Source of the DNA: a virus
Length of the DNA: 22,668 nt
Reading direction: 5' to 3' (one strand)
IMG/VR virus record: IMGVR_UViG_3300027659_000225
Coordinates: 1-22,668 of that record
Position numbers and translations under genes: made by a program. The first letter of the stretch is position 1. Every line of letters starts with the position of its first letter. This document shows positions 1,798-22,668 of this stretch, piece after piece. Below the pieces are notes generated by a model, which had not been told where the DNA came from, ran no database searches, and was given only the letters and a program-made list of their open reading frames with translations.

Positions 1798-2027
1798 AAG
1801 CCCCTCAAAAATCGCTTAAGGATTGGGGCGACCAGAAATGGCGCACTAAGTCTGGTAAACCGTCAAGTAAGACGGGAGAGCGATATTTGCCTGAAGCGGC
1901 TATTAAATCTTTAAGCCCAGCAGAATACGCAGCTACAACCAAAGCCAAACGTGCCGGTAAAGCATCTGGTAAACAGTTTGTAGCGCAACCTAAAACTATT
2001 GCAAAGAAAACAGCGGGGTTCAGATAA
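1794..2027 (+). CDS. Small basic protein, DUF5872-like, with a TTG start
   Basis: The product has 77 residues and reads KAPQKSLKDWGDQKWRTKSG, then GERYLPEAAIKSLSPAEYAA and a Lys-rich tail ending KKTAGFR. The pattern K-S-L-x-x-W-x-x-Q-K-W-R-T-x-S-G-K followed by RYLP recalls a short family shared by phages and giant viruses that I believe is DUF5872; this is from memory. There is no in-frame ATG near the 5' end. The only start that keeps the conserved opening is TTG at 1794, which overlaps the previous stop in a TTGA arrangement and lies a few bases after a run of six G, a usable ribosome-binding signal. The function is unknown. The stop shares one base with the next ATG. Confidence 0.8.
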   Translation: MKAPQKSLKDWGDQKWRTKSGKPSSKTGERYLPEAAIKSLSPAEYAATTKAKRAGKASGKQFVAQPKTIAKKTAGFR

Positions 2028-3193
2028 TGGCATCTCTATACGAACAATTAATGGCTTCTAAAGGCGCTCCAAAGGCCGCCGCAGCCACAAACTCTACACA
2101 ACTACGTAAAGCTCCTGTGAGCCTGCGCTCTGCCATGCGTAAATACGCAGCGGGTGGTGATGTTACTGGCACTGCTCCAGACTACAGCCGTGCGTATGAT
2201 GCGTTTGGCGGGGCTGGTGTTGTTAATGATTTGCGAAATCAGTTCCTAAGTATGGGGATAGACGAAAATACAATTGGTTCTATCTTGTCAAAATATTACG
2301 CACCTGAAACGTCACAACCTACGCCGCAAGCACTGACCCCACCGGAGCCAATTCCTTACAGCCCGGGCGAAGGTGGAAGAGGGATACCTACACCAGACCC
2401 ACGCCCAGAGCCACGTTATGAAGAGCCATCACGCCCAATAGCTCCTGATCGGGAAACGCCATATATTGCACCGCAACAACCGCAAGGGCCGCGCACCTCT
2501 TACCGTCAAGAGGCTGATGGCACATTAACTGAGATAGGTTACGATGGTCAACCTATCTCTGGCTATACGGAACAACAAACGGCAATGGATAGGGCTACAA
2601 GAGGTCTTGATCCATCTGAGTATCGTTATGTTTGGAACGGAGAAGGCTATACCAAAGTGCCAAATGGCCCTCAGATTGGGTATAACCCCGAACCAGAAAT
2701 GCCACGCCCAGACCCACAGCCAAGGTATGAAGAGCCTATTGCGCCGCAAATGCCCTATTATCCTGAAGAGCCAATGCCTGAAACGTACATTGAGCCAGAA
2801 GTAAATTACGATGATAGGATGCCTGTACTTCCTCCTGTGTACGATGACTTAATGCCTGTACCTCCTCCTGAGGTTTTCCCACAGTATCCAACAGACCCCG
2901 GTTTTTATGAGCGGCCTTTGGATTACTACAACCCATCACCCCCCATGGATTTCCCAACAGACCCCGGTTTTTACCAGCCTCCTGTGTACGATAACCCAGC
3001 TATAAAGATAGCAAAAAGTTTACAAGGCGGTGATATTGGAAAGTTATTACAAGACTTAACTTCACGTTCAGGTGGTCAACAAAGTGAGGGCTTAGCCGCA
3101 TTGATTGCAAAAGCACTCGCTAGCGGAGGCGGAGGCGGTTCGTTAGACGAACAACGCAGACTAATAGAACTTCTTGGTTCAATCAGAGGATAA
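2027..3193 (+). CDS. Proline-rich protein with a YDxFGG domain, possible virion protein
   Basis: The product has 388 residues. Residues 1-50 are basic and contain MRKYAAGGDV, linking it to the small basic genes upstream. Residues about 57-92 (YDAFGGAGVVNDLRNQFLSM, then GIDENTIGSILSKYY) form a small predicted helical domain that also occurs near the N-terminus of the giant protein at 18147. Residues about 94-325 are a Pro/Glu/Tyr-rich, low-complexity region with imperfect repeats: PTDPGFY occurs twice, RYEEP twice, DDxMPV twice. The C-terminus (about 330-388) is helical with a Gly run (ASGGGGGSLDEQRRLIELLG). No catalytic motif is present. The Pro-rich part could act as an extended spacer inside or on the virion, which is inference. 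The start overlaps the previous stop by one base. Confidence 0.85.
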   Translation: MASLYEQLMASKGAPKAAAATNSTQLRKAPVSLRSAMRKYAAGGDVTGTAPDYSRAYDAFGGAGVVNDLRNQFLSMGIDENTIGSILSKYYAPETSQPTPQALTPPEPIPYSPGEGGRGIPTPDPRPEPRYEEPSRPIAPDRETPYIAPQQPQGPRTSYRQEADGTLTEIGYDGQPISGYTEQQTAMDRATRGLDPSEYRYVWNGEGYTKVPNGPQIGYNPEPEMPRPDPQPRYEEPIAPQMPYYPEEPMPETYIEPEVNYDDRMPVLPPVYDDLMPVPPPEVFPQYPTDPGFYERPLDYYNPSPPMDFPTDPGFYQPPVYDNPAIKIAKSLQGGDIGKLLQDLTSRSGGQQSEGLAALIAKALASGGGGGSLDEQRRLIELLGSIRG

Positions 3194-3196
3194 GCA

Positions 3197-4132
3197 ATGA
3201 CTACTACCGGCTCAACCCTCTTTAACATGGACTTCACGGAGATCGCTGAAGAGGCGTGGGAGAGGGCTGGCCGTGAGATGCGTTCTGGCTATGACCTGCG
3301 CACAGCACGTCGCTCAATGAACCTGATGACTGTTGAGTGGCAGAACAAAGGCATCAACATGTGGACGATGGAGCAGGGGATCATTAACTTGACCCCCGGT
3401 TTAGCCACGTATGCACTGCCGACTGACACCATTGACCTTCTAGAACATGTAATCCGTACTGGATCTAACACTGCTTCTACGCAAGCCGACTTAACCATTT
3501 CACGCATTAGCGTCTCTACTTATGCAACTATTCCAAACAAGCTTAGCCAAGCTCGCCCAATTCAAGTCTGGATTCAGCGCCTTTCTGGGGAAACTAACCC
3601 AACCAATTCGGTCTTGGTGGGCGCGATTACGGCAACAGACACCACGATAACGCTTAACACCATAGTGGGTTTAGCGGGCTCAGGATTTATGCGTATTGAT
3701 TCAGAAGATATTTACTACACGTACGTATCAGGGAATACCCTAGGTGGTGTGTACCGTGGTCAGAACAACACAACTGCCGCGTCCCATACTGATGGCTCAG
3801 CTATTTTTGTACCCCAGCTTCCAGCTGTGACTGTGTGGCCCACACCTGATAACAGCACGCCGTATCAGTTTGTGTACTGGAGACTACGTAGAGTGCAGGA
3901 TGCTGGCGCTGGTGTTGAGACTGCCGACATGAACTTCCGCTTTTTACCGTGCCTTGTAGCTGGTTTGGCGTATCACATTGCAATCAAAGTACCTGAATTG
4001 ATGCCCCGCATCCAAATGCTTAAACAGATTTACGACGAGACTTTTGAAATTGCCGCTGGTGAAGACCGTGAGAAAGCTCCGCTTCGCCTTGTTCCTAGGC
4101 CAATGTTTATTGGAAGTGGCGGAGGTTACTAA
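3197..4132 (+). CDS. Head-tail adaptor / tail-tube-A-like connector protein
   Basis: The product has 311 residues. The N-terminal third is helical (FTEIAEEAWERAGREMRSGY, then TARRSMNLMTVEWQNKGINM), followed by a beta region beginning GLATYALPTDTIDL. The C-terminal part holds VTVWPTPD, YWRLRRVQDAG and a helical FRFLPCLVAGLAYHIAIKVP. This arrangement, as I recall it from environmental podoviruses, marks a connector of the gp11-like (T7 tail tubular A) or P22 gp4-like class that attaches beneath the portal. Residues about 136-206 form an inserted beta-module (ITATDTTITLNTIVGLAGSG with IDSEDIYYTY and GVYRGQNNTTAASH) of a type found in many unrelated phage proteins. Placement ahead of another adaptor gene supports a connector role. 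The exact homolog is uncertain. Confidence 0.75.
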   Translation: MTTTGSTLFNMDFTEIAEEAWERAGREMRSGYDLRTARRSMNLMTVEWQNKGINMWTMEQGIINLTPGLATYALPTDTIDLLEHVIRTGSNTASTQADLTISRISVSTYATIPNKLSQARPIQVWIQRLSGETNPTNSVLVGAITATDTTITLNTIVGLAGSGFMRIDSEDIYYTYVSGNTLGGVYRGQNNTTAASHTDGSAIFVPQLPAVTVWPTPDNSTPYQFVYWRLRRVQDAGAGVETADMNFRFLPCLVAGLAYHIAIKVPELMPRIQMLKQIYDETFEIAAGEDREKAPLRLVPRPMFIGSGGGY

Positions 4133-4983: not shown

Positions 4984-5835
4984 ATGGCAATGACATACGC
5001 CCAACTTGTTGCTGCGGTAGTTGACTATACGCAGAACACGTTTGATACCACAACTATCAACACGCTGATTAAGCAGGCGGAGCAACGCATCTATAACACG
5101 GTGCAGATTGCCAACTTGCGTAAGAACGTGACGGGTGTATTGTCAACTGGCAACAAGTACCTTGCTTGTCCAGAAGACTTTCTTTCAACATACAGCCTTG
5201 CCATATATCCGTTTAACTCTACAACTGCTACCGGCACGGCTGGCGCAAAAAGTATTGTTGTAACAAGTACAACGGGTATTGCTGTAGGTCAACAGGTTAC
5301 AGGCACAAACATTGGCACTAACGCTATTGTTCGCAGCATTAGTGGGACAACAATTACTTTAACTGTAGCTAATAGCGGTACAGTCAATACTACGGTCACT
5401 TTCCAAGGTGACTATCTGTACCTTCTAAACAAAGATGTGAACTTTGTCCGCGAGGCGTATCCTTTGAGTGCGCAGCAGTCTGAGCCTAAACACTACGCTA
5501 TCTTTGGCCCACAGTCAGCTAACGTCAATGAGTTGTCGTTCATTCTTGGCCCTACACCAAATGCCAACTACTACGCAGAACTGCATTATTACTACTATCC
5601 AGAATCTATTGTTACCGCATTGACCACATGGCTGGGTGATAACTTTGACTCTGCATTACTGTATGGCACTCTGTCTGAAGCAGGAACATACATGAAGAGC
5701 GCACCGGAAGACGGTATGTACAAGACGTATCAAGAACGGTATGTTCAAGCTATGGCGCTTCTCAAGAACTTGGGTGATGGTAAACAACGTGCTGACGCTT
5801 ATCGTGATGGTCAGATTAGGGTTGCAGTCTCATGA
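4984..5835 (+). CDS. SU10-adaptor-like head-tail connector protein
   Basis: The product has 283 residues. The opening MAMTYAQLVAAVVDYTQNTF followed by INTLIKQAEQRIYNTVQIAN matches, from memory, the adaptor family of Escherichia phage SU10-type podoviruses, which forms a ring between portal and tail. The core continues with LACPEDFLSTYSLAI, resumes after an insertion with YLYLLNKDVNFVREAYP, AELHYYYYPESI and a helical C-terminus with LLYGTLSEAGTYMKSAPED and YVQAMALLKNLGDGKQRAD. Residues about 81-141 are an inserted beta-module (AKSIVVTSTTGIAVGQQVTG, GTTITLTVANS) of a common mobile type. The following gene overlaps by four bases (ATGA). If this is the true adaptor, the protein at 3197 is a second connector component. 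Confidence 0.85.
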   Translation: MAMTYAQLVAAVVDYTQNTFDTTTINTLIKQAEQRIYNTVQIANLRKNVTGVLSTGNKYLACPEDFLSTYSLAIYPFNSTTATGTAGAKSIVVTSTTGIAVGQQVTGTNIGTNAIVRSISGTTITLTVANSGTVNTTVTFQGDYLYLLNKDVNFVREAYPLSAQQSEPKHYAIFGPQSANVNELSFILGPTPNANYYAELHYYYYPESIVTALTTWLGDNFDSALLYGTLSEAGTYMKSAPEDGMYKTYQERYVQAMALLKNLGDGKQRADAYRDGQIRVAVS

Positions 5836-8931: not shown

Positions 8932-10953
8932 ATGTCCAATCGCTACAAAGGCGCGATCATTTCCGCAACGCCGCCTACGACTACAGGTGGTGAATCAGGC
9001 ACTGCGTCTGGCGCATGGACATTAGAACAACAGATGCAGTTGCAAGCGGCTGGACTGTGGCCTAGCCCTCCACCCCCACCTCCTATTGAAGAGTTGTTTT
9101 CAACGTATTTGTATACGGGTAATGCTTCTACACAGACCATAACCAACAACATTAACTTGTCTGGTAAAGGTGGATTGGTTTGGACAAAAAGCAGCACTAA
9201 TCCTTATAGCAATGCTTTGTATGACACTGCTAGAGGTGTTAATAATCGACTTTTTAGCAATTCAACAGCGGCGGTAAATACTACGTCAGATACATTAACT
9301 GCATTTAATACTAATGGTTTTACATTAGGTGCTAATGATGGTGGAAACTTTGGTTCGGGTTCAAATGCAGTCTCATGGACATTCCGCAAACAGCCTAAGT
9401 TCTTTGATGTTGTGACGTATACGGGGACGGGTTCTAACACAACAATTGCCCATTCACTAGGCTCAGTGCCGGGAAGTATTATTGTCAAGCGCACAGATAC
9501 AACCGCTGATTGGGCTGTTTACCACCGCAGCCTTGCCAATACGCAATATCTTGTTTTAAACAGCACAGCGGCGGCGGCAACAGGTGCAACATGGTGGAAC
9601 AGCACAACACCCACATCCTCAGTTTTTAGCGTAGGCACTGACGCAAGCGTTAACGCATCAGGCGGCACATATGTGGCTTATATCTTCGCCCATGACGCAG
9701 GGGGCTTTGGCTCAACTGGTACAGAAAATGTAATTTCGTGTGGGTCTTATGCGGGCAGTGCGTCATCTATAGAAATAAATTTAGGCTATGAACCACAATG
9801 GGTTTTAATTAAACGCTCAAGTGATGCAGGGAATTGGGTTTTATTGGACACCATGAGGGCCATGTCAAATACCTCTGCTGAAATGCTTTTCCCAAATTTA
9901 AGCAATGCTTCAGACCCAAAAGCATATGCAATGGTTATACCAACAGTCACTGGTTTTACAGTTACTACAAACAATGCACAAGTAAATGAGATTGGTTATG
10001 ACTTCATTTACATGGCTATCCGCCGTGGGCCTATGAACCCCCCAACTGTTGGAACACAAGTTTATAATGCTGTGTTAAGAACTGGGACTGAAATTGCCGC
10101 AAATGTAACTGGAGTAGGATTTCCTCCAGACTTGGTTATTGTAGAACAGCGTATTGATCCAAAAGGGGCTTTTGTTGATAGGTTACGTGGAACTTCTAAA
10201 GTACTACAGTCTTACGAGTATGCGGGTGAATCAACAGATACTGCTGGCGTTACAAGTTTTATTATGGACGGAATGGTGGTAGGTAGTGGTTTTTTAGCTA
10301 ACCGCAATACAAGAACATACGTCTACTGGTTTTTCCGCCGCTATCCATCTGTGTTTGACCAAGTTTGCTACACAGGGACTGGCAGCGCTAGAACTGTGGC
10401 GCATGGTTTGACGGTAGTGCCTGAGTTAATGATTATTAAGGATAGAGGTGCAGGAACCAATGATTGGGCTGTTTATTCTGGGGTAAATACTAAAGCACTT
10501 GTCTTAAGCGAAGTTGCTGCATATGCAACTAATCCTGCGTATTGGAATGACACTTCTCCAACAGCATCAGTTTTTACAGTCGCAGGAAGCGGAAGTGTAA
10601 ACGAAAATGCCAGATCATATGTTGCTTACCTATTTGCAACTCTTGCTGGTATTTCTAAAGTAGGCACATACACAGGTACAGCGGCACTTCAAACCGTCAA
10701 CTGTGGTTTTACAACTAGTGCTCGTTGGGTAATGATTAAACGCACAGACAGTACAGGCAGTTGGTACGTCTGGGACTCCGCCCGTGGAATGTCAGCAGGA
10801 AATGACCCTTACTTACTTTTTAACGCCAACGTTGGTGAAGTCACTGGCACAAATTACGTAGACACAGACACCACGGGTTTTAAAATAACCGCCGCCGCAC
10901 CAGCCGAAATTAACGCCAGCGGCGGGTCTTACATCTTCTTAGCATTTGCTTAA
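8932..10953 (+). CDS. Large tail fibre protein, DUF7483-like, first of a paralogous pair
   Basis: The product has 673 residues. A short N-terminal tether (MSNRYKGAIISATPP, then WTLEQQMQLQAAGLWPSPPP with a run of prolines) precedes about six beta-modules whose starts fall near residues 59, 160, 271, 377, 478 and 577, a period near 100. Each module begins with a YTG-type strand and a turn leading to a (I/V)K(R/D) strand, for example VVTYTGTGSNTTIAHSLGSV and VGTYTGTAALQTVNCGFTTS. Other recurring blocks are FSTYLYTG, SWTFRKQPKFFDVVTY, YVAYIFAHDAGGFG and AIRRGPM. From memory this composition matches DUF7483-type fibres of environmental phages. Receptor binding is the expected job, not a demonstrated one. 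The gene directly downstream is its paralog. Confidence 0.85.
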   Translation: MSNRYKGAIISATPPTTTGGESGTASGAWTLEQQMQLQAAGLWPSPPPPPPIEELFSTYLYTGNASTQTITNNINLSGKGGLVWTKSSTNPYSNALYDTARGVNNRLFSNSTAAVNTTSDTLTAFNTNGFTLGANDGGNFGSGSNAVSWTFRKQPKFFDVVTYTGTGSNTTIAHSLGSVPGSIIVKRTDTTADWAVYHRSLANTQYLVLNSTAAAATGATWWNSTTPTSSVFSVGTDASVNASGGTYVAYIFAHDAGGFGSTGTENVISCGSYAGSASSIEINLGYEPQWVLIKRSSDAGNWVLLDTMRAMSNTSAEMLFPNLSNASDPKAYAMVIPTVTGFTVTTNNAQVNEIGYDFIYMAIRRGPMNPPTVGTQVYNAVLRTGTEIAANVTGVGFPPDLVIVEQRIDPKGAFVDRLRGTSKVLQSYEYAGESTDTAGVTSFIMDGMVVGSGFLANRNTRTYVYWFFRRYPSVFDQVCYTGTGSARTVAHGLTVVPELMIIKDRGAGTNDWAVYSGVNTKALVLSEVAAYATNPAYWNDTSPTASVFTVAGSGSVNENARSYVAYLFATLAGISKVGTYTGTAALQTVNCGFTTSARWVMIKRTDSTGSWYVWDSARGMSAGNDPYLLFNANVGEVTGTNYVDTDTTGFKITAAAPAEINASGGSYIFLAFA

Positions 10954-10962
10954 GGACAGAAC

Positions 10963-12972
10963 ATGAGTACAAAGTACACCGGCGGTTTCATCACAAAATC
11001 CCCAGTAGCGCCAACATCATCGGCGGCTTCTGGTATCTGGACGCTTGACCAACAACAGCAAGCTCAGAAAGCCGGTACTTGGCCCAGCCCCCCTATATTC
11101 ATTGAGGATTTGTTCTCAACGTATTTGTATACAGGCAATTCCTCTACACAAACCATTACAAACAACATTGATTTGTCCACTAAAGGTGGATTGACTTGGA
11201 TTAAATCACGTTCCGATACAACAAGTCATTTTTTGTTTGACACCATTCGGGGCGCTTTAAATGAAATAAACAGTAACAATACTCAAGCACAAGCGTCTCT
11301 TGCCGACAGTTTAACGGCTTTTAACACCAATGGTTTTTCTTTGGGAAATAGTGGGCAAACTAATTTTACTGGAGAAACTTACGCCTCATGGACATTCCGA
11401 GAGCAACCAAAGTTTTTTGATGTTGTAACTTGGACTGGAAATGGTACTGGCGATAGAGAAATATCCCACAATTTGGGCGTAGCTCCCGGTTGCATAATTT
11501 TTAAAAGCACCTCTAACGCAGGTACAAATTGGTTTGTTTACCATAGAGCTTTGTCAACACCTGACTATCGTTATATGTATTTACAAGATACAGCCGCCGC
11601 TCTTACATCAGGCGACAATTTGTGGAATGTAACATCTACAACTTTTCGTGCATCTAGCACACTTGATGCAAACAACAATGGCTTTACCTACGTAGCCTAC
11701 CTATTTGCCCATGACGCAGGGGGCTTCCCTGTTTCTGGCGGTGGATCAACCAATGGTATTTCGTGTGGGTCGTTTACTACTGATGGATCTGGTAATGCTA
11801 CTGTTACTCTTGGGTACGAACCACAATGGGTTTTAAACAAAACTTCATCTAGCGCAGACAACTGGACTATTGCAGATAATATGCGAGGGTTTTCAGTAAC
11901 TAATGAGCAAAGACTTTACGCAAACCTGTCTAATGCAGAAGCCGCTGCAACTACTTTTAGACCAACTGCCACAGGTTATACAGTAAATAGTGGAGAAGTT
12001 TCAAAAACATACATCTACATAGCCATCCGCCGTGGCCCAATGAAGACCCCAACTGTGGGGACGAGTGTCTATAACGCTATTGCTCGGGCTGGAACAGGGG
12101 CAGTAGCTACGGTGACAGGTGTTGGATTCCCACCTGATTTGTTAATTTCAAAAATTCGTACTTCAACTGTAGGGGCAAACTGGTCGGATAGGTTGCGTGG
12201 TTCCACTGCAAACTTAATCTCTAGTTCAGATGGCGCAGAAGCAATTTCTGCAAATCGAGTAACTGCACTTGGGCAAGACGGTTTCTCGCTTGGCACAGCA
12301 AGTGAAGTTAATGCCAGTGGGTTTGACTACATTAACTGGAACTTTAGACGTGCGCCATCGTTTTTTGATGAGGTTTGCGATACGGGGACAGGATCAACGC
12401 ACACAATTGCTCATAATTTAGGAGTTGTACCTGAGTTTATGATTCGTAAAAGTAGATCGCAAAGCTCAACAGCTTGGTATTGCTACGTTGCTAGTGAGGG
12501 CGCTTCACGCAGGGGGTTTCTAAACCAAGATTTTGCTTGGGGTGGCCCAGACAATTCCATTTGGGGTGGGACAACGCCAACAAGCACTGTGTTCACCGTG
12601 GGAGCCGATGGCAGTATAAACAACAACGCATCTACCTACGTCACTTACCTCTTTGCCACTTGTGCGGGCGTTTCTAAAGTTGGAACATACACCGGCACAG
12701 GCGCACTTCAAACTGTCAACTGCGGGTTTACTTCAGGCGCTAGGTTTGTTTTGATTAAGCGCACAGATAGCACAGGCGACTGGTACGTCTACGACAGCGC
12801 ACGGGGTATTACATCCGGTAACGACCCATATTTGTTGTTAAACAGTACAGCCGCTGAAGTCACAGGCACAAACTACGTTGACACCGACACAACTGGGTTT
12901 AAAGTAACCGCCGCCGCACCCGCAGGTTTAAACGCCAATGGCGGAACCTATATCTTTCTTGCCATCGCTTAA
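10963..12972 (+). CDS. Large tail fibre protein, DUF7483-like, second of a paralogous pair
   Basis: The product has 669 residues and aligns end to end with the fibre at 8932: tether MSTKYTGGFITKSPVAP and WTLDQQQQAQKAGTWPSPP, first module at FSTYLYTGNSSTQTITNNID, then SWTFREQPKFFDVVTWTG, YVAYLFAHDAGGFP, GYEPQWVLNKTSS, AIRRGPMKTPTVGTSVYNA, NFRRAPSFFDEVCDTG and a final module starting VGTYTGTGALQTVNCGF. Both ends are best conserved between the paralogs; the middle modules differ more. Many differences are synonymous, so the duplication is not very recent. Two kept, diverged fibres could give hetero-oligomeric fibres or two receptor specificities; this is inference. TAAGGAC at 10951-10957, fused to the preceding stop, serves the ATG. 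Confidence 0.85.
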   Translation: MSTKYTGGFITKSPVAPTSSAASGIWTLDQQQQAQKAGTWPSPPIFIEDLFSTYLYTGNSSTQTITNNIDLSTKGGLTWIKSRSDTTSHFLFDTIRGALNEINSNNTQAQASLADSLTAFNTNGFSLGNSGQTNFTGETYASWTFREQPKFFDVVTWTGNGTGDREISHNLGVAPGCIIFKSTSNAGTNWFVYHRALSTPDYRYMYLQDTAAALTSGDNLWNVTSTTFRASSTLDANNNGFTYVAYLFAHDAGGFPVSGGGSTNGISCGSFTTDGSGNATVTLGYEPQWVLNKTSSSADNWTIADNMRGFSVTNEQRLYANLSNAEAAATTFRPTATGYTVNSGEVSKTYIYIAIRRGPMKTPTVGTSVYNAIARAGTGAVATVTGVGFPPDLLISKIRTSTVGANWSDRLRGSTANLISSSDGAEAISANRVTALGQDGFSLGTASEVNASGFDYINWNFRRAPSFFDEVCDTGTGSTHTIAHNLGVVPEFMIRKSRSQSSTAWYCYVASEGASRRGFLNQDFAWGGPDNSIWGGTTPTSTVFTVGADGSINNNASTYVTYLFATCAGVSKVGTYTGTGALQTVNCGFTSGARFVLIKRTDSTGDWYVYDSARGITSGNDPYLLLNSTAAEVTGTNYVDTDTTGFKVTAAAPAGLNANGGTYIFLAIA

Positions 12973-14412: not shown

Positions 14413-14921
14413 CGCTTCTCTCAACCCTAATCTCGTTCCTAATGGGCGGCTTGCCTAAGTTGTTGGATTTTTTCCAAGACCGTGCCGACAAGCTGCATGA
14501 ATTAAACCTTGCTCGGCTACAGATTGAGCGTGAGTTAGAACTGCGTAAAGCTGGCTTTGAAGCGCAGGAGCGCATTGAGCATATCCGGTCAGAACAGTTG
14601 GCAACCGAGAGCGCAGCTAACACCCAGCAAGTCCTGATTGGGGCACAGCAAGCTGAAATGCAGGCCATCTACGCCCATGATGAAAGTTTAAACGAAGGCA
14701 CAAGCCAGTGGATGAAGAACCTGAGAGCCAGCGTTCGCCCTGTCATTACCTATGGTTTCTTCTTTCTGCTGTTGTTTGTGGATGTTGGTTTGTTTGCCTA
14801 CGGCTGGCACAGTGGCGCTACGTTCGTAGAGTTAGCCGAGATGCTTTGGGACTCTGACACCCAAGCTTTGTTTGCTTCAATCATTGCTTTCCACTTTGGT
14901 GGTCGGGCGTTTGGTAAATGA
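14406..14921 (+). CDS. Holin-like protein, GTA_holin_3TM-type
   Basis: The product has 171 residues. The N-terminus is a hydrophobic amphipathic helix (LLSTLISFLMGGLPKLLDFF), followed by a long charged coiled-coil-like helix (about residues 25-85, LNLARLQIERELELRKAGFE). Then comes ASVRPVITYGFFFLLLFVDV, a transmembrane segment (about 110-135), and a final hydrophobic FASIIAFHFGGRAFGK. This order, with the RASVRPVITY element, matches from memory the GTA_holin_3TM family, whose members form membrane holes letting the endolysin reach the peptidoglycan. The lysozyme gene follows with a four-base overlap (ATGA), as expected for a holin-endolysin pair. This is the best holin candidate in the window. 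Confidence 0.8.
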   Translation: MLTLLSTLISFLMGGLPKLLDFFQDRADKLHELNLARLQIERELELRKAGFEAQERIEHIRSEQLATESAANTQQVLIGAQQAEMQAIYAHDESLNEGTSQWMKNLRASVRPVITYGFFFLLLFVDVGLFAYGWHSGATFVELAEMLWDSDTQALFASIIAFHFGGRAFGK

Positions 14922-15394
14922 ACATCTCAGAGAAATGCCTGCACATGATCCGCCACCATGAGGGGGTCAGGCAAAACCCGTATAAATGTCCAGCAAAGTT
15001 GTGGACGGTGGGGGTCGGGCACGTTATGTTTCCAGAGCAGGGTAAGCTTAAGATAGACCAGCGGGATGCCTTTGTGCCACCGCCAGAGGCTATGCGTAAA
15101 CACAGCATGGAGGAAGTTAATGAAATACTTAAGGCCGATCTTGCTAGGTTTGAGCGAGGCGTGGCTACCTATTGTCCTGTTCCTCTTACTCAAGGACAGT
15201 TTGACGCACTTGTATCGTTTTCATTCAATGTTGGGCTAGGCACACTCCAGCGGTCAACCATGCGTCAAAAGGTGATTCGTGGTGATATGGCGGGGGCCGC
15301 AGAAGAACTCTTGAAGTATTGCATGGCGGGGGGTAAAATTCTCAAAGGGCTACAGAAACGTCGTATTGACGAACGAGCACTGTTTTTATCCTAG
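14918..15394 (+). CDS. Phage lysozyme (endolysin), GH24 family
   Basis: The product has 158 residues. Catalytic Glu is E15 in IRHHEGVRQNPYKCPAK, and WTVGVGH (residues 29-35) carries T30. By spacing from E15 (+9 and +15), the T4-lysozyme triad E-D-T is here E15-C24-T30, with Cys in place of Asp; this E-C-T variant is known among phage lysozymes. The family core QFDALVSFSFNVGLGTLQRS follows, and the C-terminus GGKILKGLQKRRIDERALFL is a typical GH24 end. Activity would be cleavage of the MurNAc-GlcNAc bond in peptidoglycan. There is no signal or anchor sequence, so export must depend on a holin such as the one encoded immediately upstream. The stop TAG starts a TAGGAC ribosome site. Confidence 0.93.
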   Translation: MNISEKCLHMIRHHEGVRQNPYKCPAKLWTVGVGHVMFPEQGKLKIDQRDAFVPPPEAMRKHSMEEVNEILKADLARFERGVATYCPVPLTQGQFDALVSFSFNVGLGTLQRSTMRQKVIRGDMAGAAEELLKYCMAGGKILKGLQKRRIDERALFLS

Positions 15395-15402
15395 GACTAC
15401 CG

Positions 15403-17490
15403 ATGGCGCTTAAAAAACTTGCAATGAAGCCGGGGGTTAACCGGGAGAATACCCGTTACATGAACGAGAACGGTTGGTATGAGTCCGACAAAGTGCGGTT
15501 CCGTCAAGGTACGCCTGAAAAGATTGGTGGCTGGGCACGTATATCTGCGTCTACATTCCAAGGTCTGTGCCGTTCTTTGTGGAACTGGATCACGCTAGAC
15601 AACTTAAACCTAATTGGTGTAGGCACTAACTTAAAGTTTTACCTTGAACTAGGTGGTGAGTACAACGACATTACGCCTATTCGGGCGGGAGCTATCCTAA
15701 ATAACCCGTTTGCCACAACTAACCTGCTTACTTTAGTTACTGTCACAGATGCATCCCACGGTGCAATTACAGGTGACTTTGTAACGTTCAGTAACGTAGC
15801 GCCCGTAGGTGGCCTTGATTTAAACGGTGAGTTTTCTATTACCTATGTTGATGCCAATACCTACACTATTACAGCTCCTAGCGCAGCTACTTCAACTGTG
15901 GCGGCTGGCGGTGGTTCAACTGTTAATGCGATCTACCAAATCAACGTAGGCGATCCATACGAAATTCCGCTGGCGGGCTGGGGTGCGGGTACATGGGGCG
16001 CAGGAACTTGGGGCTTTGGCGGTACGTCTACCTCTGCCCTGCGTCTATGGAGCCAGAACAACTTTGGTGAAGACTTGGTTTATGGTTTCCGTGGTGGCCC
16101 AATCTATTACTGGGATGCTGGTTATGGCGTAAACCCTGCTTTAGCTTCAATTACCATAGCCTCTCCTGCGGTGGTTACTGCCGCTTATAGTTTGCCAAAT
16201 GGCTCTCCAGTCATCTTTACAAACAGTGGGTATCCCGCTGCGCTACCTACAGGGCTGTCTCCCGGAACAATCTACTATGTTATTAACGCTAGTGGTAATA
16301 CGTTTAACTTAGCGGCTACTGTTGGCGGCGCGGCAATTACCACAACAGGAACGCAGTCTGGCGATCATTACATCATGCCTAACGGTGTAAACATCACAAG
16401 TTTGTCGGGCGCATCAGACTGCCCAATCATTCAAAACTTTGTTTTTGTATCTGATGTAAGTCGCTTTGTGTTTGCTTTTGGCTGTAATGATTACGCTTCT
16501 ACAGTACAAAACCCCATGTTAATTCGCTGGTCGGATCAGGAGTCCGTGGTTAACTGGACACCATCTGCAACCAATCAGGCTGGTAGTGTTACGTTATCCC
16601 ACGGCTCAAGCATTATTACCGCAATTCAAACCCGCCAAGAGATTTTGGTGTGGACTGATTCTGCTATCTATTCTCTTCAATACATTGGTCAGCCTGTGGT
16701 TTGGTCTAGTCAGTTAATGGGAGACAACATATCTATCCTCGGTCAAAACGCAGCAGCACAAGCTTCTGGCGTGGTGTACTGGATGGGTGTGGATAAGTTT
16801 TATCTGTACGACGGACGTTTGCAGACTTTGCCATGTGATCTTCGCCGGTACATCTATCAGGACATTAACCTCCAACAGAACCAGCAAGTGTTTGCCGGTA
16901 CAAACGAAGGCTTTAATGAGGTCTGGTGGTTCTACTGCGCGGCTGGTAGTTTGGTTGCTAATCGTTATGTGGTCTACAACTACCTTGAAAAAATCTGGTA
17001 CTACGGCACGATGGAGCGAACAGCTTGGCTAGACTCTGGCCTAAGAGACTTCCCTATTGCCGCTACGTACAACTACAACTTAGTTGATCAAGAGTACGGC
17101 TTAGACAATAACGAAACAGGTACGCCTCTAGGTATTGAGGCTTACATCTCATCCACAGAATTTGACATTGATGATGGCGACAGATTTGGTTTTGTTTGGA
17201 GAATGTTGCCTGACTTGACTTTCTCAGGGTCAGATGCTTCACCAACTCCGCAAGTTACGTATACTTTATATCCCATGCAGAACTCAGGCTCTGGCACAGG
17301 CACAGCGGTAAATAAAGATGTAGACAAGTTAACCGGTGCTCAGTACACAGTAACTGAAGGCTTTACAGGGCAGATCAATACCCGCGTGCGGGGCAGGCAG
17401 TTAATCTTAAAGGTTAGCTCGGATAACCTTGGAACAACATGGCAGTTGGGTGCAACTCGTATTGACATTAGACCGGATGGCAGACGATGA
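15403..17490 (+). CDS. Tail hub / nozzle-like protein (P22 gp10-like DNA stabilization family)
   Basis: The product has 695 residues. The opening (MALKKLAMKPGVNRENTRYM, then NENGWYESDKVRFRQGTPEK and IGGWARIS) is characteristic, from memory, of the environmental-phage version of P22 gp10 and the SU10 nozzle, a protein that closes the short tail below the adaptor. Later blocks such as NGVNITSLSGASDCPIIQNF, ILVWTDSAIYSLQYIGQP, VYWMGVDKFYLYDG and EVWWFYCAAGS suggest repeated beta-propeller-like blades. Two beta-modules look inserted (about residues 102-183 and 243-328), the second containing LPTGLSPGTIYYVINASGNT. A Trp-Gly box (GWGAGTWGAGTWGFGG) resembles that of the protein at 6824. The DNA-retaining role is inferred from the family. 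Confidence 0.85.
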   Translation: MALKKLAMKPGVNRENTRYMNENGWYESDKVRFRQGTPEKIGGWARISASTFQGLCRSLWNWITLDNLNLIGVGTNLKFYLELGGEYNDITPIRAGAILNNPFATTNLLTLVTVTDASHGAITGDFVTFSNVAPVGGLDLNGEFSITYVDANTYTITAPSAATSTVAAGGGSTVNAIYQINVGDPYEIPLAGWGAGTWGAGTWGFGGTSTSALRLWSQNNFGEDLVYGFRGGPIYYWDAGYGVNPALASITIASPAVVTAAYSLPNGSPVIFTNSGYPAALPTGLSPGTIYYVINASGNTFNLAATVGGAAITTTGTQSGDHYIMPNGVNITSLSGASDCPIIQNFVFVSDVSRFVFAFGCNDYASTVQNPMLIRWSDQESVVNWTPSATNQAGSVTLSHGSSIITAIQTRQEILVWTDSAIYSLQYIGQPVVWSSQLMGDNISILGQNAAAQASGVVYWMGVDKFYLYDGRLQTLPCDLRRYIYQDINLQQNQQVFAGTNEGFNEVWWFYCAAGSLVANRYVVYNYLEKIWYYGTMERTAWLDSGLRDFPIAATYNYNLVDQEYGLDNNETGTPLGIEAYISSTEFDIDDGDRFGFVWRMLPDLTFSGSDASPTPQVTYTLYPMQNSGSGTGTAVNKDVDKLTGAQYTVTEGFTGQINTRVRGRQLILKVSSDNLGTTWQLGATRIDIRPDGRR

Positions 17491-18137
17491 GCTACATCAT
17501 TACATCTGAGTTTGAACTCAATAAAGTAGCCGCACCTAACTTGCCGCTTCCTCCAGAGGATTACAACCGTGTGTATTTTGACCAGATGCTTAACATTTTG
17601 CGTCTGTACTTCAACAGGCTTGATGCTCTGACGGGGCAGTTAAATACTTCCTCTGGCGGGGCAGGCATACGATTGCCGTATGGAGCTTTTTCCAGCGATC
17701 AGGATCAAACAACAACAGCTAATACAGCTACGTTGATGACGCTGAACACCACAGACTTTACCAACGGCGTCACTATTGCAACTTCTAAAATTACGGTAGC
17801 AACTGCCGGTATTTACAACTTGCAGTTCAGTACGCAGTTTGCAAACACAAACAGTAACGTCCAAGATGTCTATATTTGGTTAAAACAAGGCGGTGTAGAT
17901 ATTCCGGGGTCAACTGGTTTTGTATCTATTCCGGGAAGTCACGGAGGTACGGATGGGCACTCAATTGTTGGCTGGAACTATTTTTTAAGCATGACAGCAA
18001 ACGACTACGTTGAGATTTATTGGTCTGTGCCTAATGTTGCTGTGACTATTCAACACCTTGCCGCTTCCGGCACACCCACTAAGCCGTCTACGCAGTCGGT
18101 GGTGGCTACAATGACATTTGTTTCGGCATTAGCTTAA
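17487..18137 (+). CDS. Minor tail protein with C1q/TNF-like jelly-roll domain
   Basis: The product has 216 residues. The N-terminal section (SEFELNKVAAPNLPLPPEDY, then FDQMLNILRLYFNRLDALTG) is a short helical anchor typical of proteins that attach to phage tails. The rest reads as a jelly roll: LPYGAFSSDQDQTTTANTAT, LMTLNTTDFTNGVTIATSKI, GIYNLQFSTQFANTNSNVQD, VYIWLKQGGVDIPGS and WNYFLSMTANDYVEIYWSVP. The order of YGAFSS, a GIYNLQFS strand and a NDYVEIYW strand is what I know as the C1q-like fold used for trimeric binding heads in phage fibres. Host receptor or glycan binding is inference. The start overlaps the previous stop in ATGA. Confidence 0.8.
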   Translation: MSYIITSEFELNKVAAPNLPLPPEDYNRVYFDQMLNILRLYFNRLDALTGQLNTSSGGAGIRLPYGAFSSDQDQTTTANTATLMTLNTTDFTNGVTIATSKITVATAGIYNLQFSTQFANTNSNVQDVYIWLKQGGVDIPGSTGFVSIPGSHGGTDGHSIVGWNYFLSMTANDYVEIYWSVPNVAVTIQHLAASGTPTKPSTQSVVATMTFVSALA

Positions 18138-18146
18138 GGTTTAGAC

Positions 18147-21100
18147 ATGTCAGTCAGAGACTCTTATAGAACGGTTTACGAGCCAGAAGATGACGTTACG
18201 GATTATTACGCCCAGCAATTTGGGCCAGATACTCCCGCCGCCGCTCCCCCTCCTCCTCCCCCTGAAAGTACCTCTAATTACGAAAGTATTTATGACCTTT
18301 TTGGCGGAAAAGATGCTACCAATGATTTAATTGCGCAGATTAGAGGTATGGGGTTATCTGATAGCGATATTGCTGGCATCTTTGCCCCGTATCAAAAAAC
18401 AGCTACTACAGAAACAGCCACCGTTCAAGCTCCTGCCGCCGTTCAAGCCCCCGCCGCTGTTGAAACCCCCGCTGTTCAAGCCCCCGCCGCTGTTGAAACT
18501 CCTGCCGCTGTTGAAACTCCCGCCGCAAAAACTACTGACATAGTAGACGACTACATTGCGTCTATCCCTGAGTCTGATATGACGGTTGAGGATTTGTACA
18601 CAACCATTCTTGGTCGTCCATCAGATGCAGGTGGTAAGGCATTCTGGGAAAACGCATTTGGGCCTACTGTAGATGAGTCGGAAAAAGCTGACTTTTTGCA
18701 AGCAGCTAAAGCAGAACTCGCCACTAAAACTAAAGAAGAACAAACAGCGTTGGCTCCTAATCTTGTAGGTACAACACAAACAACTGCGGACACAACCCAA
18801 GTTGCAGCAGTTGAGCCTGAAATAGTTTTAACTCCTGAACAAATAAAAGAAATAGAAGAAGGATTAAAAGATATAGATTTTCTTGGACTTAAGCCAGCGA
18901 ACCAAGGTTTGGGTGGCCCGCTTCTTACAGTTGCTCCACCAGAAGTGCAAAATGCGGTTGATTTAAAGAACGGTACATATCTAACTACTACTGGCACAAT
19001 CGTTGATGTGTCAGGTAACGTGCTTGCGGATACCGGGTCTGCCGCTACTACCACATTGACCCAACAAATTCTTGGGCAAAACTTGACGGATAAATGGCAG
19101 GGTCAGGGATGGGGGACGGCGCAAGCTAATGCTTCTGACATGGCAAGAATTTTGGCCAGTATTGACATTACGGACATCAAACAATTTGGTGAAGTTCCTC
19201 TTTTAGCGCCTGTTGAAGAAATTGGTAAAACGTATAACGGAAACCAAGTTGTCAAAATTGACCTTGGCGATGGCGAAATTAGAAATGCGGTATATCAAGG
19301 GACTGGTCAATTTGACGATAATGGCGAAATTGGTAGATATGTACCAGTGCCTAAAGATGCAAAAATTGAAACGCTTTACGGGGTATCTAATGGTGAAAGC
19401 TACGATGCCGTTGATCCATCAAAAGTAAAAATAATAGATGGCAAACCTGTAGTTGACACAGGGCAAAAAACATTTGGCAATAAAGTGACGGGCGAAGCTG
19501 TTCCTAATACATACAGTGAACGTCAAACTGGAAACGCTTGGGGTGGAACATTTGCTGGTAAAGGTAACACAGGTTATCGAGTTCAGTTTGCCCCTGATGG
19601 AACGCCAATCTTTTACACAACAGCTGCATCCTCAAATGATTTAGCTAATCTTATGCAAGACCTTGGCCCGATTGGTCAAATTGGTTTGGCCATTGCTACG
19701 GGTGGTTTGTCTATACCTCAACAGATTGCGGCTAATTTAGCTGTAAACGTTTTAAGCGGTAAAGACCTTGGTGATTCAATTAAAAGCGCTGCAATTAGTT
19801 TTGCTGGCGCTCAAATCCCTGGTATGGATTTCATGTCAGATGGCGCTTCGTTTATTAAAGACCTTGGGCTGTCAACAGAACTTACAAACACGCTAACTAA
19901 CTCTTTCCAAAACGCTGCGGTTTCTGCTGGCACTGCGCTGCTTAGTGGCCAAGATGTTGGCGAAGCCATGACTAGAGGTTTTGTTACCGGTGGTGTTAAC
20001 GGTGCTGTTAATTCGCTCTTAGGTAATATTGAAGGGTTTGGCGACCTAACCGCTAACCAAAAGAAGATGGTTACCAATGCCGTAACAGGCGTGATTTCAG
20101 GTAAACCACTGGATCAGATTGTTATCAATACCGCTATCTCTGCGGCCAATTCAGCTATTGCCGACGCTAAAGGCACAACTGGAAACCTAGATACAAACAC
20201 AGAAGACACGCTAACTAAAGCTGGGTTAGTAGACGGCAATGCCGCAACGGACACCGACACTCTTACCTCACTCCTTGCCAATAAAGATGTTGTTTCGTCT
20301 ATTGGTAGCGACGCAGTCACAACCCCAGATACTTTAAACCTTGGCGGTGCGGATACGCTTGCAGCAACTCTTCCAGACGCTAGTACGCTTATTGATACTG
20401 AGTTTGGTGACCTAAAAGGCGCGCAAGATAGAAACGCCGCAGACAACCAACTGCGGGATACAATTAAAACCAGCAGTAGCTTTAATGATGCGTATGCACT
20501 GGCACGTAAAGAACTCGGTGCAAATAAAACATTTGATTGGTTAAACCCCAAGACAGGCAAGGTAGAAAGCTTTAGCACCGCTACAAAAGAAGAGCGTCCA
20601 GATTTAAACATTACTGCCGCTGACAAAGCAATTGACGCTCTAAACGCATCTAACTTATCTACAACAACCAACGCATCCAGTACAGTTGCAGCACAAGGCG
20701 ATACGGCTGCTAGAACACTTGCCACTGCGCCGGATCAAAACCCTGCGGAAACTAGACGTCTATCAGCGCTTAATAACTCTTTGGTATTGGGTAATGCTCC
20801 TGACCAATCGGCAGCGGAAACAGCAAAACTAGCTGCGCAGAACAGAACTGCCAAACTGTCGGCTGAAGAGTCTGATAGCGTTATTACATCGGTATTTAAA
20901 AACGTAACGGGTACATTATCCGCAGCCGCAGGTGAACAAGCATCCGCACTTGAGGGCGCACTTAAGGCTAGTGGGGCTATTGGCAAAAACAGCCTACTTG
21001 CGGGTATGGCAAACGGTTTGACTTCTTACGGAGCAAATAATGTTAGTACCAAAGCTCAAGAGCAAGAACAAGGGTTTGTAACTGAGATTGCTAAAGCTGG

Positions 21101-22668
21101 TAACACTGGCAACTGGAGGGAGGATGCTGTTGCTAAAATAAAAGTCCTACCTTCAGCCATTATTAACAACCCAATTGGTTTTGGTTACGCTGTAGTTAAA
21201 GAAGGTATCCAAGAAGTTATTCCAATTTTGACTGGCGTTACTGCGGCTAAGTGGGGCGGTAAATTTATAGGCTTTGCTGCCGACGCTATTGTTAACGGAG
21301 TTGAAGCTGGCGGCGCAGGGTACAACGGCACTGTGGCAAAAGCCGAAAAAGCCGGTATGAGTGAAGCAAATGCACATGCTGCGGGTCAAAAAGCGTTTGT
21401 TGCTTCCGCTACTGTAGCTGCTGTGCTTGGCCCTATTGTTGATGCTCCGTTTATTAAACGGGCCGCAGGTGACGTAGTTGAAAAAACAACTCTTAGTACA
21501 GTAGGTAAATCAGCGGCTAAAGAAATGCCGCTAGAGTATGTAGAAGAAGGCTCGGCTCAAGGTTTTGAAGACTATTTTGCTACCGGCAAGGTCAACGTAA
21601 ATAACATTTTGACGGGTGCAACCGCTGGCGCTGCTGTTGCTGGACATACTGTAGCTTCTATTCAGTTGGGCGAAATGGCGCTGAGTAAGGTAGAACAAGC
21701 GGCTTCTTCTGAAATACTTACTTCCGTAGCTGGCGATAAAGCCGGTGAGTTGCAGACTCAAGTTGCAAGCACTCTTGCAAATACTAAAAACTTGTCAGAC
21801 GCCGGTACGCAGATTGCAACTACGATGCAAGACGCAGGCATGAACGTTAACCAAGCTCAGTCGGTTGCCAATACTGTTGTGGCCGAGGCGGTTGTTCATA
21901 ACCTTACAAAGACTAGCGGCGCAGATACTAAGTTTAGTGTTGATAATTTAAACGCGCCTGTTGGCTTTGATACAGACGGCAATGCAGTCACAGTCGGTGA
22001 TGTGCTTGGTTCTAGCGTAACGGGTAAAGGCACGGACTTTAAAGTCCAACCAGATGTAGTTATTGGAACTGCGGGTGATGGTAAACCCTTAACAATTGGT
22101 GAGTTGACTGGTTTAAAGGCTAAAGATACCCCTATCACAACCGATGCAAAAGCAACTGCGGCTGCGGTGGACGCCAAATCAGATGTCGTTGCTGCCTTAG
22201 AAACTGCGGGGCTGTCTGAGACTAAAGCCGACACAGCTATTACAGCCGATCAAGCGCAACAAGTTATGGCTGATCTTGGGCTTAATGTTTCGAATGAGAC
22301 GGCGCAATCGTTGGCAACTAAGATTGAAGGCGCTAGTAAAACGGATGTTGTTACTGCTCTGGAAACTGCGGGGTTGTCTGAAACTAAAGCCGACGCTCTT
22401 GCAGATGTACTCTCAACTACCAAACCTGCTGTAGATACCAAGTCTGACGCAGACACCAAGCTAGACACTAAGCAGGACGTAGACACTAAACCAGACACCA
22501 AGCTAGACACTAAGCAGGACGTAGACACTAAACCAGACGCTAAGCTAGACACTAAGCAGGACGTAGACACTAAACCAGACGCTAAGCTAGACACTAAGCA
22601 GGACGTAGACACTAAACCAGACGCTAAGCTAGACACTAAGCAGGACGTAGACACTAAACCAGACGCTA
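18147..22668 (+). CDS. Giant repetitive virion protein, possible internal/ejection protein (3' end outside window)
   Basis: The ATG at 18147 follows a TAAGGT that overlaps the previous stop, and the frame stays open to the window edge: at least 1,507 residues. In order: residues 48-83 hold the YDLFGG...NDL domain also found in the protein at 2027; residues about 84-128 are Ala/Pro/Val repeats (PAAVETPAAVETP); about 147-191 hold a DUF4214-like segment (LYTTILGRPSDAGGKAFWEN); about 195-480 are mixed beta; about 505-650 hold Gly/Ala-rich helical segments (GPIGQIGLAIATGGLSIPQQ). Near residues 1010-1180 are further hydrophobic Ala/Gly segments and EYVEEGSAQGFEDYF. The end is Ala/Thr/Asp/Lys-rich with two DVVxALETAGLSETKAD copies and five 14-residue repeats. 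Size, place after the tail genes and Gly/Ala helices suggest an internal virion or ejection protein; this is inference. Confidence 0.85.
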   Translation, partial: MSVRDSYRTVYEPEDDVTDYYAQQFGPDTPAAAPPPPPPESTSNYESIYDLFGGKDATNDLIAQIRGMGLSDSDIAGIFAPYQKTATTETATVQAPAAVQAPAAVETPAVQAPAAVETPAAVETPAAKTTDIVDDYIASIPESDMTVEDLYTTILGRPSDAGGKAFWENAFGPTVDESEKADFLQAAKAELATKTKEEQTALAPNLVGTTQTTADTTQVAAVEPEIVLTPEQIKEIEEGLKDIDFLGLKPANQGLGGPLLTVAPPEVQNAVDLKNGTYLTTTGTIVDVSGNVLADTGSAATTTLTQQILGQNLTDKWQGQGWGTAQANASDMARILASIDITDIKQFGEVPLLAPVEEIGKTYNGNQVVKIDLGDGEIRNAVYQGTGQFDDNGEIGRYVPVPKDAKIETLYGVSNGESYDAVDPSKVKIIDGKPVVDTGQKTFGNKVTGEAVPNTYSERQTGNAWGGTFAGKGNTGYRVQFAPDGTPIFYTTAASSNDLANLMQDLGPIGQIGLAIATGGLSIPQQIAANLAVNVLSGKDLGDSIKSAAISFAGAQIPGMDFMSDGASFIKDLGLSTELTNTLTNSFQNAAVSAGTALLSGQDVGEAMTRGFVTGGVNGAVNSLLGNIEGFGDLTANQKKMVTNAVTGVISGKPLDQIVINTAISAANSAIADAKGTTGNLDTNTEDTLTKAGLVDGNAATDTDTLTSLLANKDVVSSIGSDAVTTPDTLNLGGADTLAATLPDASTLIDTEFGDLKGAQDRNAADNQLRDTIKTSSSFNDAYALARKELGANKTFDWLNPKTGKVESFSTATKEERPDLNITAADKAIDALNASNLSTTTNASSTVAAQGDTAARTLATAPDQNPAETRRLSALNNSLVLGNAPDQSAAETAKLAAQNRTAKLSAEESDSVITSVFKNVTGTLSAAAGEQASALEGALKASGAIGKNSLLAGMANGLTSYGANNVSTKAQEQEQGFVTEIAKAGNTGNWREDAVAKIKVLPSAIINNPIGFGYAVVKEGIQEVIPILTGVTAAKWGGKFIGFAADAIVNGVEAGGAGYNGTVAKAEKAGMSEANAHAAGQKAFVASATVAAVLGPIVDAPFIKRAAGDVVEKTTLSTVGKSAAKEMPLEYVEEGSAQGFEDYFATGKVNVNNILTGATAGAAVAGHTVASIQLGEMALSKVEQAASSEILTSVAGDKAGELQTQVASTLANTKNLSDAGTQIATTMQDAGMNVNQAQSVANTVVAEAVVHNLTKTSGADTKFSVDNLNAPVGFDTDGNAVTVGDVLGSSVTGKGTDFKVQPDVVIGTAGDGKPLTIGELTGLKAKDTPITTDAKATAAAVDAKSDVVAALETAGLSETKADTAITADQAQQVMADLGLNVSNETAQSLATKIEGASKTDVVTALETAGLSETKADALADVLSTTKPAVDTKSDADTKLDTKQDVDTKPDTKLDTKQDVDTKPDAKLDTKQDVDTKPDAKLDTKQDVDTKPDAKLDTKQDVDTKPDA
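18423..18527 (+). repeat. Ala/Pro/Val/Glu-rich short coding repeats
   Basis: Residues 93-127 of the giant protein repeat a five- to six-residue unit of the form V(Q/E)(A/T)PAA, with codons such as GTT CAA GCC CCC GCC GCT and GTT GAA ACT CCT GCC GCT. The unit is imperfect, with mixed synonymous codons. It probably forms an extended linker between the N-terminal YDLFGG domain and the DUF4214-like segment. Confidence 0.85.
22182..22394 (+). repeat. Two copies of a DVVxALETAGLSETKAD unit in the giant protein
   Basis: The first copy begins at 22182 and the second at 22344. The two 17-residue units differ by one residue (A versus T) but by several synonymous bases, so this duplication is older than the 42-bp array downstream. 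They flank a stretch with a similar theme, QQVMADLGLNVSNETAQSLA, suggesting a longer degenerate helical repeat of about 50 residues. Confidence 0.8.
22458..22667 (+). repeat. Five 42-bp tandem repeats in the coding sequence (14-residue units), running off the window
   Basis: Units start at 22458, 22500, 22542, 22584 and 22626, each 42 bp, encoding KLDTKQDVDTKPD plus T or A. The first unit ends ACC (Thr) and the other four end GCT (Ala); otherwise the copies are identical in bases. The period is exactly 14 codons, so the reading frame is kept whatever the copy number. A degenerate preface (VDTKSDADTK) comes just before. The array continues past the last base of the window, so total copy number is unknown. 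Confidence 0.95.

Follow-up and report, generated by a model that had tools for sequence, protein, structure and literature searches.

A giant, cysteine-free protein from the late cassette of an uncultivated short-tailed phage shares a helical module with the N4 virion RNA polymerase and is probably ejected

Very few phages (N4, DEV, and T7) have served to study the passage of giant proteins through a tail channel of about 35 Å and across the cell envelope. The gp50-type RNA polymerase of N4 and DEV is an ejection protein (PMC10925440; PMC12633501), and the virion RNA polymerase (vRNAP) reaches the cytoplasmic membrane of the host (PMC4496689). The N-terminal domain (NTD) of N4 gp50 has predicted membrane-spanning helices (residues 224–278) and goes into nanodiscs; it is joined by a low-complexity linker of about 100 residues, and a beads-on-a-string passage through the channel has been proposed. 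Large polyvalent proteins of the LPD39/DarB type are also thought to be injected (PMC5512222). Here we compare with these systems a giant gene, gA, at the right end of a viral contig.

The window analyzed is a whole IMG/VR viral record of 22,668 bp, with nothing past position 22668. The frame of gA starts with an ATG and runs from 18147 to 22667 with no stop in 1,507 codons, in agreement with an earlier note made on this DNA, which had also correctly described the gene's own ribosome-binding sequence and a terminal tandem array (Table 1). The array consists of 5.2 copies of a 14-residue unit at 98% match (TRF), and tandem arrays are an ordinary stopping place for short-read assembly. The open 3′ end of gA is an assembly break in this array, and the gene itself is real: complete relatives carry stops and the break lies within the repeats, so the unfinished state of gA is an assembly effect. 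The stop that the earlier note had expected beyond 22668 is thus found in the relatives but not in this record. A second contig (L002), encoding a gA protein that is 100% identical over 1,491 residues, also breaks inside the same array, and when a continuation was sought by the repeat sequence across the collection, L002 alone carried the array, without further sequence. The complete relatives nearest to the window protein have 1,627–2,031 residues (1,946, 2,031, 2,013, and 1,627 among them), and full-length gA probably has about 1,600–2,040.

Table 1. Positions of gA, its parts, and neighboring features in the window
Feature	Position	Strand	Basis or remark
Endolysin-like gene	14918..15394	+	Same place in many relatives; label from appearance of sequence
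Stabilization/tail-tube type virion protein (P22 gp10-type)	15403..17490	+	phrog_3287, 6.9e-62
Short tail gene, 216 aa	17487..18137	+	Directly before gA; synteny
AAGG ribosome-binding sequence	18136..18139	+	7 nt 5′ of gA ATG; overlaps stop codon of preceding gene
gA (giant gene)	18147..22668	+	Frame open, 1,507 codons; 3′ end cut by contig end
N-terminal domain, aa 41–89	18267..18413	+	Common to gene 2027–3193
Second copy of the small N-terminal domain	2177..2317	+	In 388-aa gene 2027–3193
Ala/Pro/Val/Thr repeat linker, aa 86–130	18402..18536	+	TRF 18423–18526; composition
Weak DUF4214-like segment, aa 147–170	18585..18656	+	E 0.0099, under Pfam cut-off
Core part 1, aa 299–498	19041..19640	+	Compact alpha+beta domain, pLDDT mostly ~90 (alignment A3, AlphaFold2)
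Core part 2, aa 499–695	19641..20231	+	Gly/Ala-rich helices (alignments A1/A3); low-confidence helices in model
Small helix/beta-hairpin unit, aa 770–820	20454..20606	+	pLDDT 80–96, first 50 residues of model A4
Helical module, about aa 914–1180	20886..21686	+	Homologous to giant B N-terminal region and N4 gp50 NTD (hhalign)
Low-complexity Ala/Thr/Val/Asp tail, about aa 1192–1434	21720..22449	+	Composition
Tandem array	22450..22668	+	42-bp/14-codon unit DTKQDVDTKPDAKL; assembly stops inside (TRF)

The protein is laid out as an N terminus, a linker and core, a second module, a low-complexity tail, and the repeat array. The N-terminal domain is indeed shared, as had been observed earlier, with another gene of the window (2027–3193), the local alignment score being 82 compared with a best score of 49 in 1,000 shuffles; phmmer with the 388-aa protein of that gene also recovers the N termini of gA from other phages. 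The Ala/Pro linker described in the earlier note was recovered by TRF. The DUF4214-like label fared less well, since DUF4214 (PF13946) scores 16.4 bits in the window protein against a gathering cut-off of 23.2, but the label holds in one relative (L046), where the score of 35.7 bits passes the cut-off, possibly in another copy. The core (aa 299–695) is the best-conserved part of gA; its column identity averages 53% in an alignment of 52 sequences. A Foldseek search with the model of its first part gave no match at E≤0.001 among solved or predicted viral folds; the second part contains IPGMDF and a repeated “SGKxxxxxI...A” motif that was seen by eye. The second module comprises aa 770–1191 (alignments A2/A4), and its model beyond the first 50 residues is helical and of low confidence (mostly below pLDDT 50–70), so the lack of a significant Foldseek match for the module carries little meaning. 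The Gly/Ala-rich segments to which the earlier note drew attention are present and helical, and only three 19-residue stretches of gA exceed a mean hydropathy of 1.2, all of them within aa 1080–1172.

Whole-protein searches of Pfam, PHROG, and NCBIfam gave no family match for gA and no enzyme or LPD domain, nor did they find a single-subunit RNA polymerase domain, the RNA polymerase of N4 lying outside the homologous part. RTX and disulfide-rich binding modules are absent from the window protein, and neither the core nor the module has a relative in a sequence search of the PDB. No copy of the core was confirmed in 84,980 prokaryote species genomes, which therefore offer no clue to a provirus or host. 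The findings named beforehand as contrary to an ejected or other virion protein (an early in-frame stop, a break on resequencing, or homology of the whole protein to a non-virion enzyme) did not occur.

Motifs common to the second module and to the N-terminal region of another giant late protein, giant B, were first noticed by eye and were confirmed by profile comparison with three giant B N termini. In hhalign, the module matches the N-terminal region of giant B (18 sequences) with a probability of 96.7% (E 4e-10). Profile comparison and structure prediction on separate pieces of gA had been proposed in the earlier note, and the former connects the module with an ejection protein, the N terminus of the N4 vRNAP (11 Schitoviridae polymerases; 92.7%, E 4e-7). 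The giant B N terminus (three sequences) in turn matches the N4 vRNAP at 98.2% (E 3e-14), and an independent link is provided by HMMER, in which giant B of L018 matches phrog_2206, “virion RNA polymerase” (E 1.6e-10). It should be noted that the hhalign E-values refer to single pairs and that more weight should be given to the controls; reversed profiles gave ≤0.5% and 60 column shuffles each gave ≤0.4%. The gA core gives only 0.1% with N4, so the signal in the module reflects more than Gly/Ala richness. Among 23 known whole phage proteins, N4 gp50 is the sole match to the module (54% as a single sequence, residues 145–442); the remaining proteins, including internal proteins of T7, P22, P1, and crAss001, give ≤0.6%, and the T7 fiber and P22 tailspike give 0.1%.

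Judged by sequence comparison, gA thus shares the general build of the N4 vRNAP. Both proteins are very large and cysteine-free, contain low-complexity linkers as well as the homologous helical module, and are encoded beside other ejection genes. However, gA has no polymerase or other recognized enzyme, its module lies in the middle of the protein rather than at the N terminus, its gene precedes the other ejection-type genes, and it has a core, a repeat tail, and a C-terminal tip of its own. The module is missing from gA in many relatives, and is then often found in giant B; it therefore does not define the gene. Among 34 genomes, a module of the N4 type is present in gA only in 10, in giant B only in 14, in both in 4, and in neither in 6, some of which may hold diverged copies. 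A rule of exactly one module per genome was considered and is a trend only (Fisher p = 0.035, uncorrected for kinship).

Over many contigs the genes are arranged in a cassette in the order endolysin-like gene, stabilization, short gene, gA, g288, g309, g566, and giant B. Among the matches of the window's stabilization protein in other phages are genes annotated “stabilization protein,” and it has the same position in related contigs. In a 63,442-bp sequence (G003) whose stabilization protein is 95% identical to that of the window, the gene order includes terminase, portal (phrog_1216), scaffold, and capsid, and replication genes lie past giant B on the other strand. The product of g309 matches phrog_4287, “DNA ejection protein,” weakly here (E 1e-4) and in L018 (8e-4) and well in phage MinM2 (2e-19). 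Giant B matches LPD39 and DarB-like antirestriction families (in L065:8416-14256, for example, both), and LPD39 occurs in giant B only, not in gA. A HELLHA motif seen by eye in the giant B counterpart of L006 suggests a zinc protease. In eight relatives (L037, L038, L044, L087, L096, L098, L105, and L137), g288 and g309 are fused into a gene for about 570–660 residues.

The types of genes in this cassette parallel the P22 order gp10, needle gp26, gp14, gp7, gp20, and gp16. As with the P22 gp7/gp20/gp16 block, gA follows a gp10-type stabilization gene and a short tail or needle gene and is accompanied by a member of a DNA-ejection family, but the module has no sequence match in these P22 proteins, the largest of which (609 aa) is exceeded by gA at least 2.5-fold. 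By analogy with the gp10-gp26 order, the short tail gene before gA possibly encodes a tail needle. The earlier note had called it C1q-like, a label that rests on appearance, for Pfam and NCBIfam searches with this gene gave no match and did not recognize C1q. Among relatives, the short gene, which encodes 89–222 residues in most of them, falls mainly into two length classes (about 89–116 and about 208–236 residues). The long class has an additional putative knob, recalling tail needles, some of which possess a tip domain and some of which do not. The cultured phages DSL-LC04, MinM2, HTVC023P, and HTVC027P keep the order stabilization, g288, g309, and giant B, with neither the core nor the module of gA between these cassette genes. 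Therefore gA is not universal in the cassette, and from these comparisons it seems to be an additional gene that this group has in the ejection block.

Comparison of gA with its relatives, some of which are 84–100% identical to the window protein, divides it into pieces that can be exchanged. The N terminus is nearest to that of L046 and the middle is nearest to those of L006 and L010, whereas the middle of L046 is quite different; on this evidence gA is a mosaic whose exchangeable N terminus, linker and core are followed by the second module and by a repeat tail that is hypervariable. The 49 non-redundant complete relatives, which have a stop and a downstream gene, range from 506 to 2,039 residues (median 1,482), and in 28 of them the next gene begins 1 bp after the stop, this spacing lying between −8 and +11 bp in all 49. 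A conserved C-terminal tip of about 100 residues is present in 32 of the 49 and would lie beyond the end of the window contig. The tip may be a clade marker; a tie to the state of g288/g309 was also considered, the tip being absent from all seven fused cases, but this is weakened by 10 split cases that are also without it. The tails of the relatives consist of PTT, EP, TD, KAD, or Cys-rich repeats. Long Cys-rich repeat ends (C-x11/12-C) occur in a minority (L027, L037, L038, L085-L087, L090, L105, L115, and L139), and that of L105 gives a match to the chitin-binding Peritrophin-A family. RTX calcium-binding repeats are found in two relatives, L183:1384-6309 (E 1.8e-11) and L045:7346-11941 (E 1.6e-5). 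A match to the gA core and module on the opposite strand directly after the gA gene of L041 (6044-7669) is probably an inverted assembly artifact.

There is no cysteine among the 1,507 residues of gA, and 67 of 76 non-redundant relatives also have none; in the eight with at least four, nearly all are in Cys-rich C-terminal tails. Cysteine is likewise absent from all g566 and giant B proteins that are homologues of the L046 protein, and makes up about 0.04% of g288/g309, 0.89% of the stabilization protein, and 2.5% of the endolysin-like protein. Cysteine is very scarce, relative to the other phage proteins counted, in proteins that are known or believed to travel through the tail: N4 gp50, gp51, and gp52 have none in 4,294 residues, and the ejection proteins of T7 and P22 have 2 in 3,658, compared with 54 in 7,058 for the other proteins (Fisher p = 4e-8). 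P1 DarB is an exception, with 9 in 2,255 residues. The phages in this comparison were N4 (L145), T7 (L156), P22 (L157), P1 (L212), crAss001 (L213), and T4 (L214); crAss001 gp47, gp49, and gp50 have 5 cysteines in 6,102 residues, and T4 IPI-III and gp2 have none. The T7 internal core protein gp16, which is ejected, resembles gA in being very large and cysteine-free but has no detectable sequence relation to it (0.1%), and no transglycosylase domain was found in gA. P22 gp26 and scaffolds are also cysteine-free, so the property is not exclusive to ejected proteins, and since some other virion proteins share it, it supports an ejected role for gA but does not prove it.

We consider gA to be an ejected virion protein of an uncultivated short-tailed phage, with a probability of about two-thirds. 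The main reason for favoring ejection is that a helical segment of gA is related to the membrane-inserting part of the injected RNA polymerase of N4; the internal or ejected virion protein suggested in the earlier note is also supported by the absence of cysteine and by the position of gA between the stabilization and short tail genes and a block whose next-but-one product belongs to a DNA-ejection family. As a large modular ejection (pilot) protein, gA would be synthesized late and stored in the head, over or around the portal, and on infection would exit through the tail ahead of the DNA. Like the NTD of N4 gp50, its module might then become associated with the inner membrane, and gA could help the products of g288, g309, g566, and giant B to form or prime a path for DNA across the envelope, with the repeat tail as a flexible linker of variable length and the C-terminal tip probably docking to the portal or to the next gene product.

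A location on the outside of the particle, with gA attached to the tail beside the product of the short tail gene and binding host cells or particles as an adhesin or appendage through its repeat tail and tip, would fit the position of gA directly after that gene, the Pro/Thr/Asp/Lys-rich tails, the RTX repeats and chitin-binding-like match in the three relatives mentioned, the Cys-rich C-terminal tails of a minority of relatives, and the strong modular mosaicism, which is typical of receptor-binding parts. We regard it as unlikely, because the homology of the window protein's module is with an ejected membrane domain and not with fibers, nearly all relatives of gA lack cysteine, and the window already has two tail-fiber-type genes (DUF7483) in another place. 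If gA is ejected, it might act mainly in the host, in anti-defense or transcription, with the membrane module as its delivery part. The N4 vRNAP itself joins a delivery domain to an enzyme, and gA resembles the polyvalent-type giant B, with its antirestriction matches, in being giant, late, encoded in the same cassette, and presumed to enter the cell with the DNA. However, homology between gA and giant B is limited to the N-terminal, delivery-type region and to some of the giant B proteins; gA has no recognized enzyme or LPD domain, and its confidently modeled core domain has no fold match; an effector of this kind is therefore distinctly improbable. The chances are slimmer still that gA is a structural protein inside the head or at the portal that is kept in the particle and never ejected. 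A homologue of the core is encoded between portal and scaffold in MW202710, and the absence of gA from several relatives shows that ejection does not require it in every phage, but the homology of aa 914–1180 to an ejected domain, the lack of cysteine, and the place in the ejection block all argue against retention.

Ejection of gA, the reading preferred here, can tentatively be extended to a wider possibility, one that may well not hold. The NTD of the N4 vRNAP might be one case of an “ejection domain” that can be transferred and that freshwater podoviruses insert into giant, cysteine-free gA or giant B proteins independently of a polymerase. In that case gA would represent a new family of ejection proteins, in which this domain is combined with a middle and a repeat tail that are both swappable and with a docking tip that stays constant at the C terminus. 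The polymerase-free proteins with an N4-type membrane module are encoded on many uncultivated, mostly aquatic phage contigs, in either of two neighboring giant genes; in them the delivery domain is found apart from its cargo and becomes testable. The near-absence of cysteine from ejected proteins provides a simple sequence cue for finding more of them.

Recurrent short “(K/R)xxxGG(V/I/M)” motifs, possibly for processing or binding, are shared by a number of small late proteins, namely the products of window genes 544–1239, 1243–1518, 1522–1797, and 2027–3193 as well as g288 and g566 of L006. Genes 3197–4132 and 4984–5835 both match SU10-type adaptor proteins. The consecutive genes 8932–10953 and 10963–12972 each match DUF7483 (tail fiber/virion structural families) over two stretches and represent a tandem duplication.
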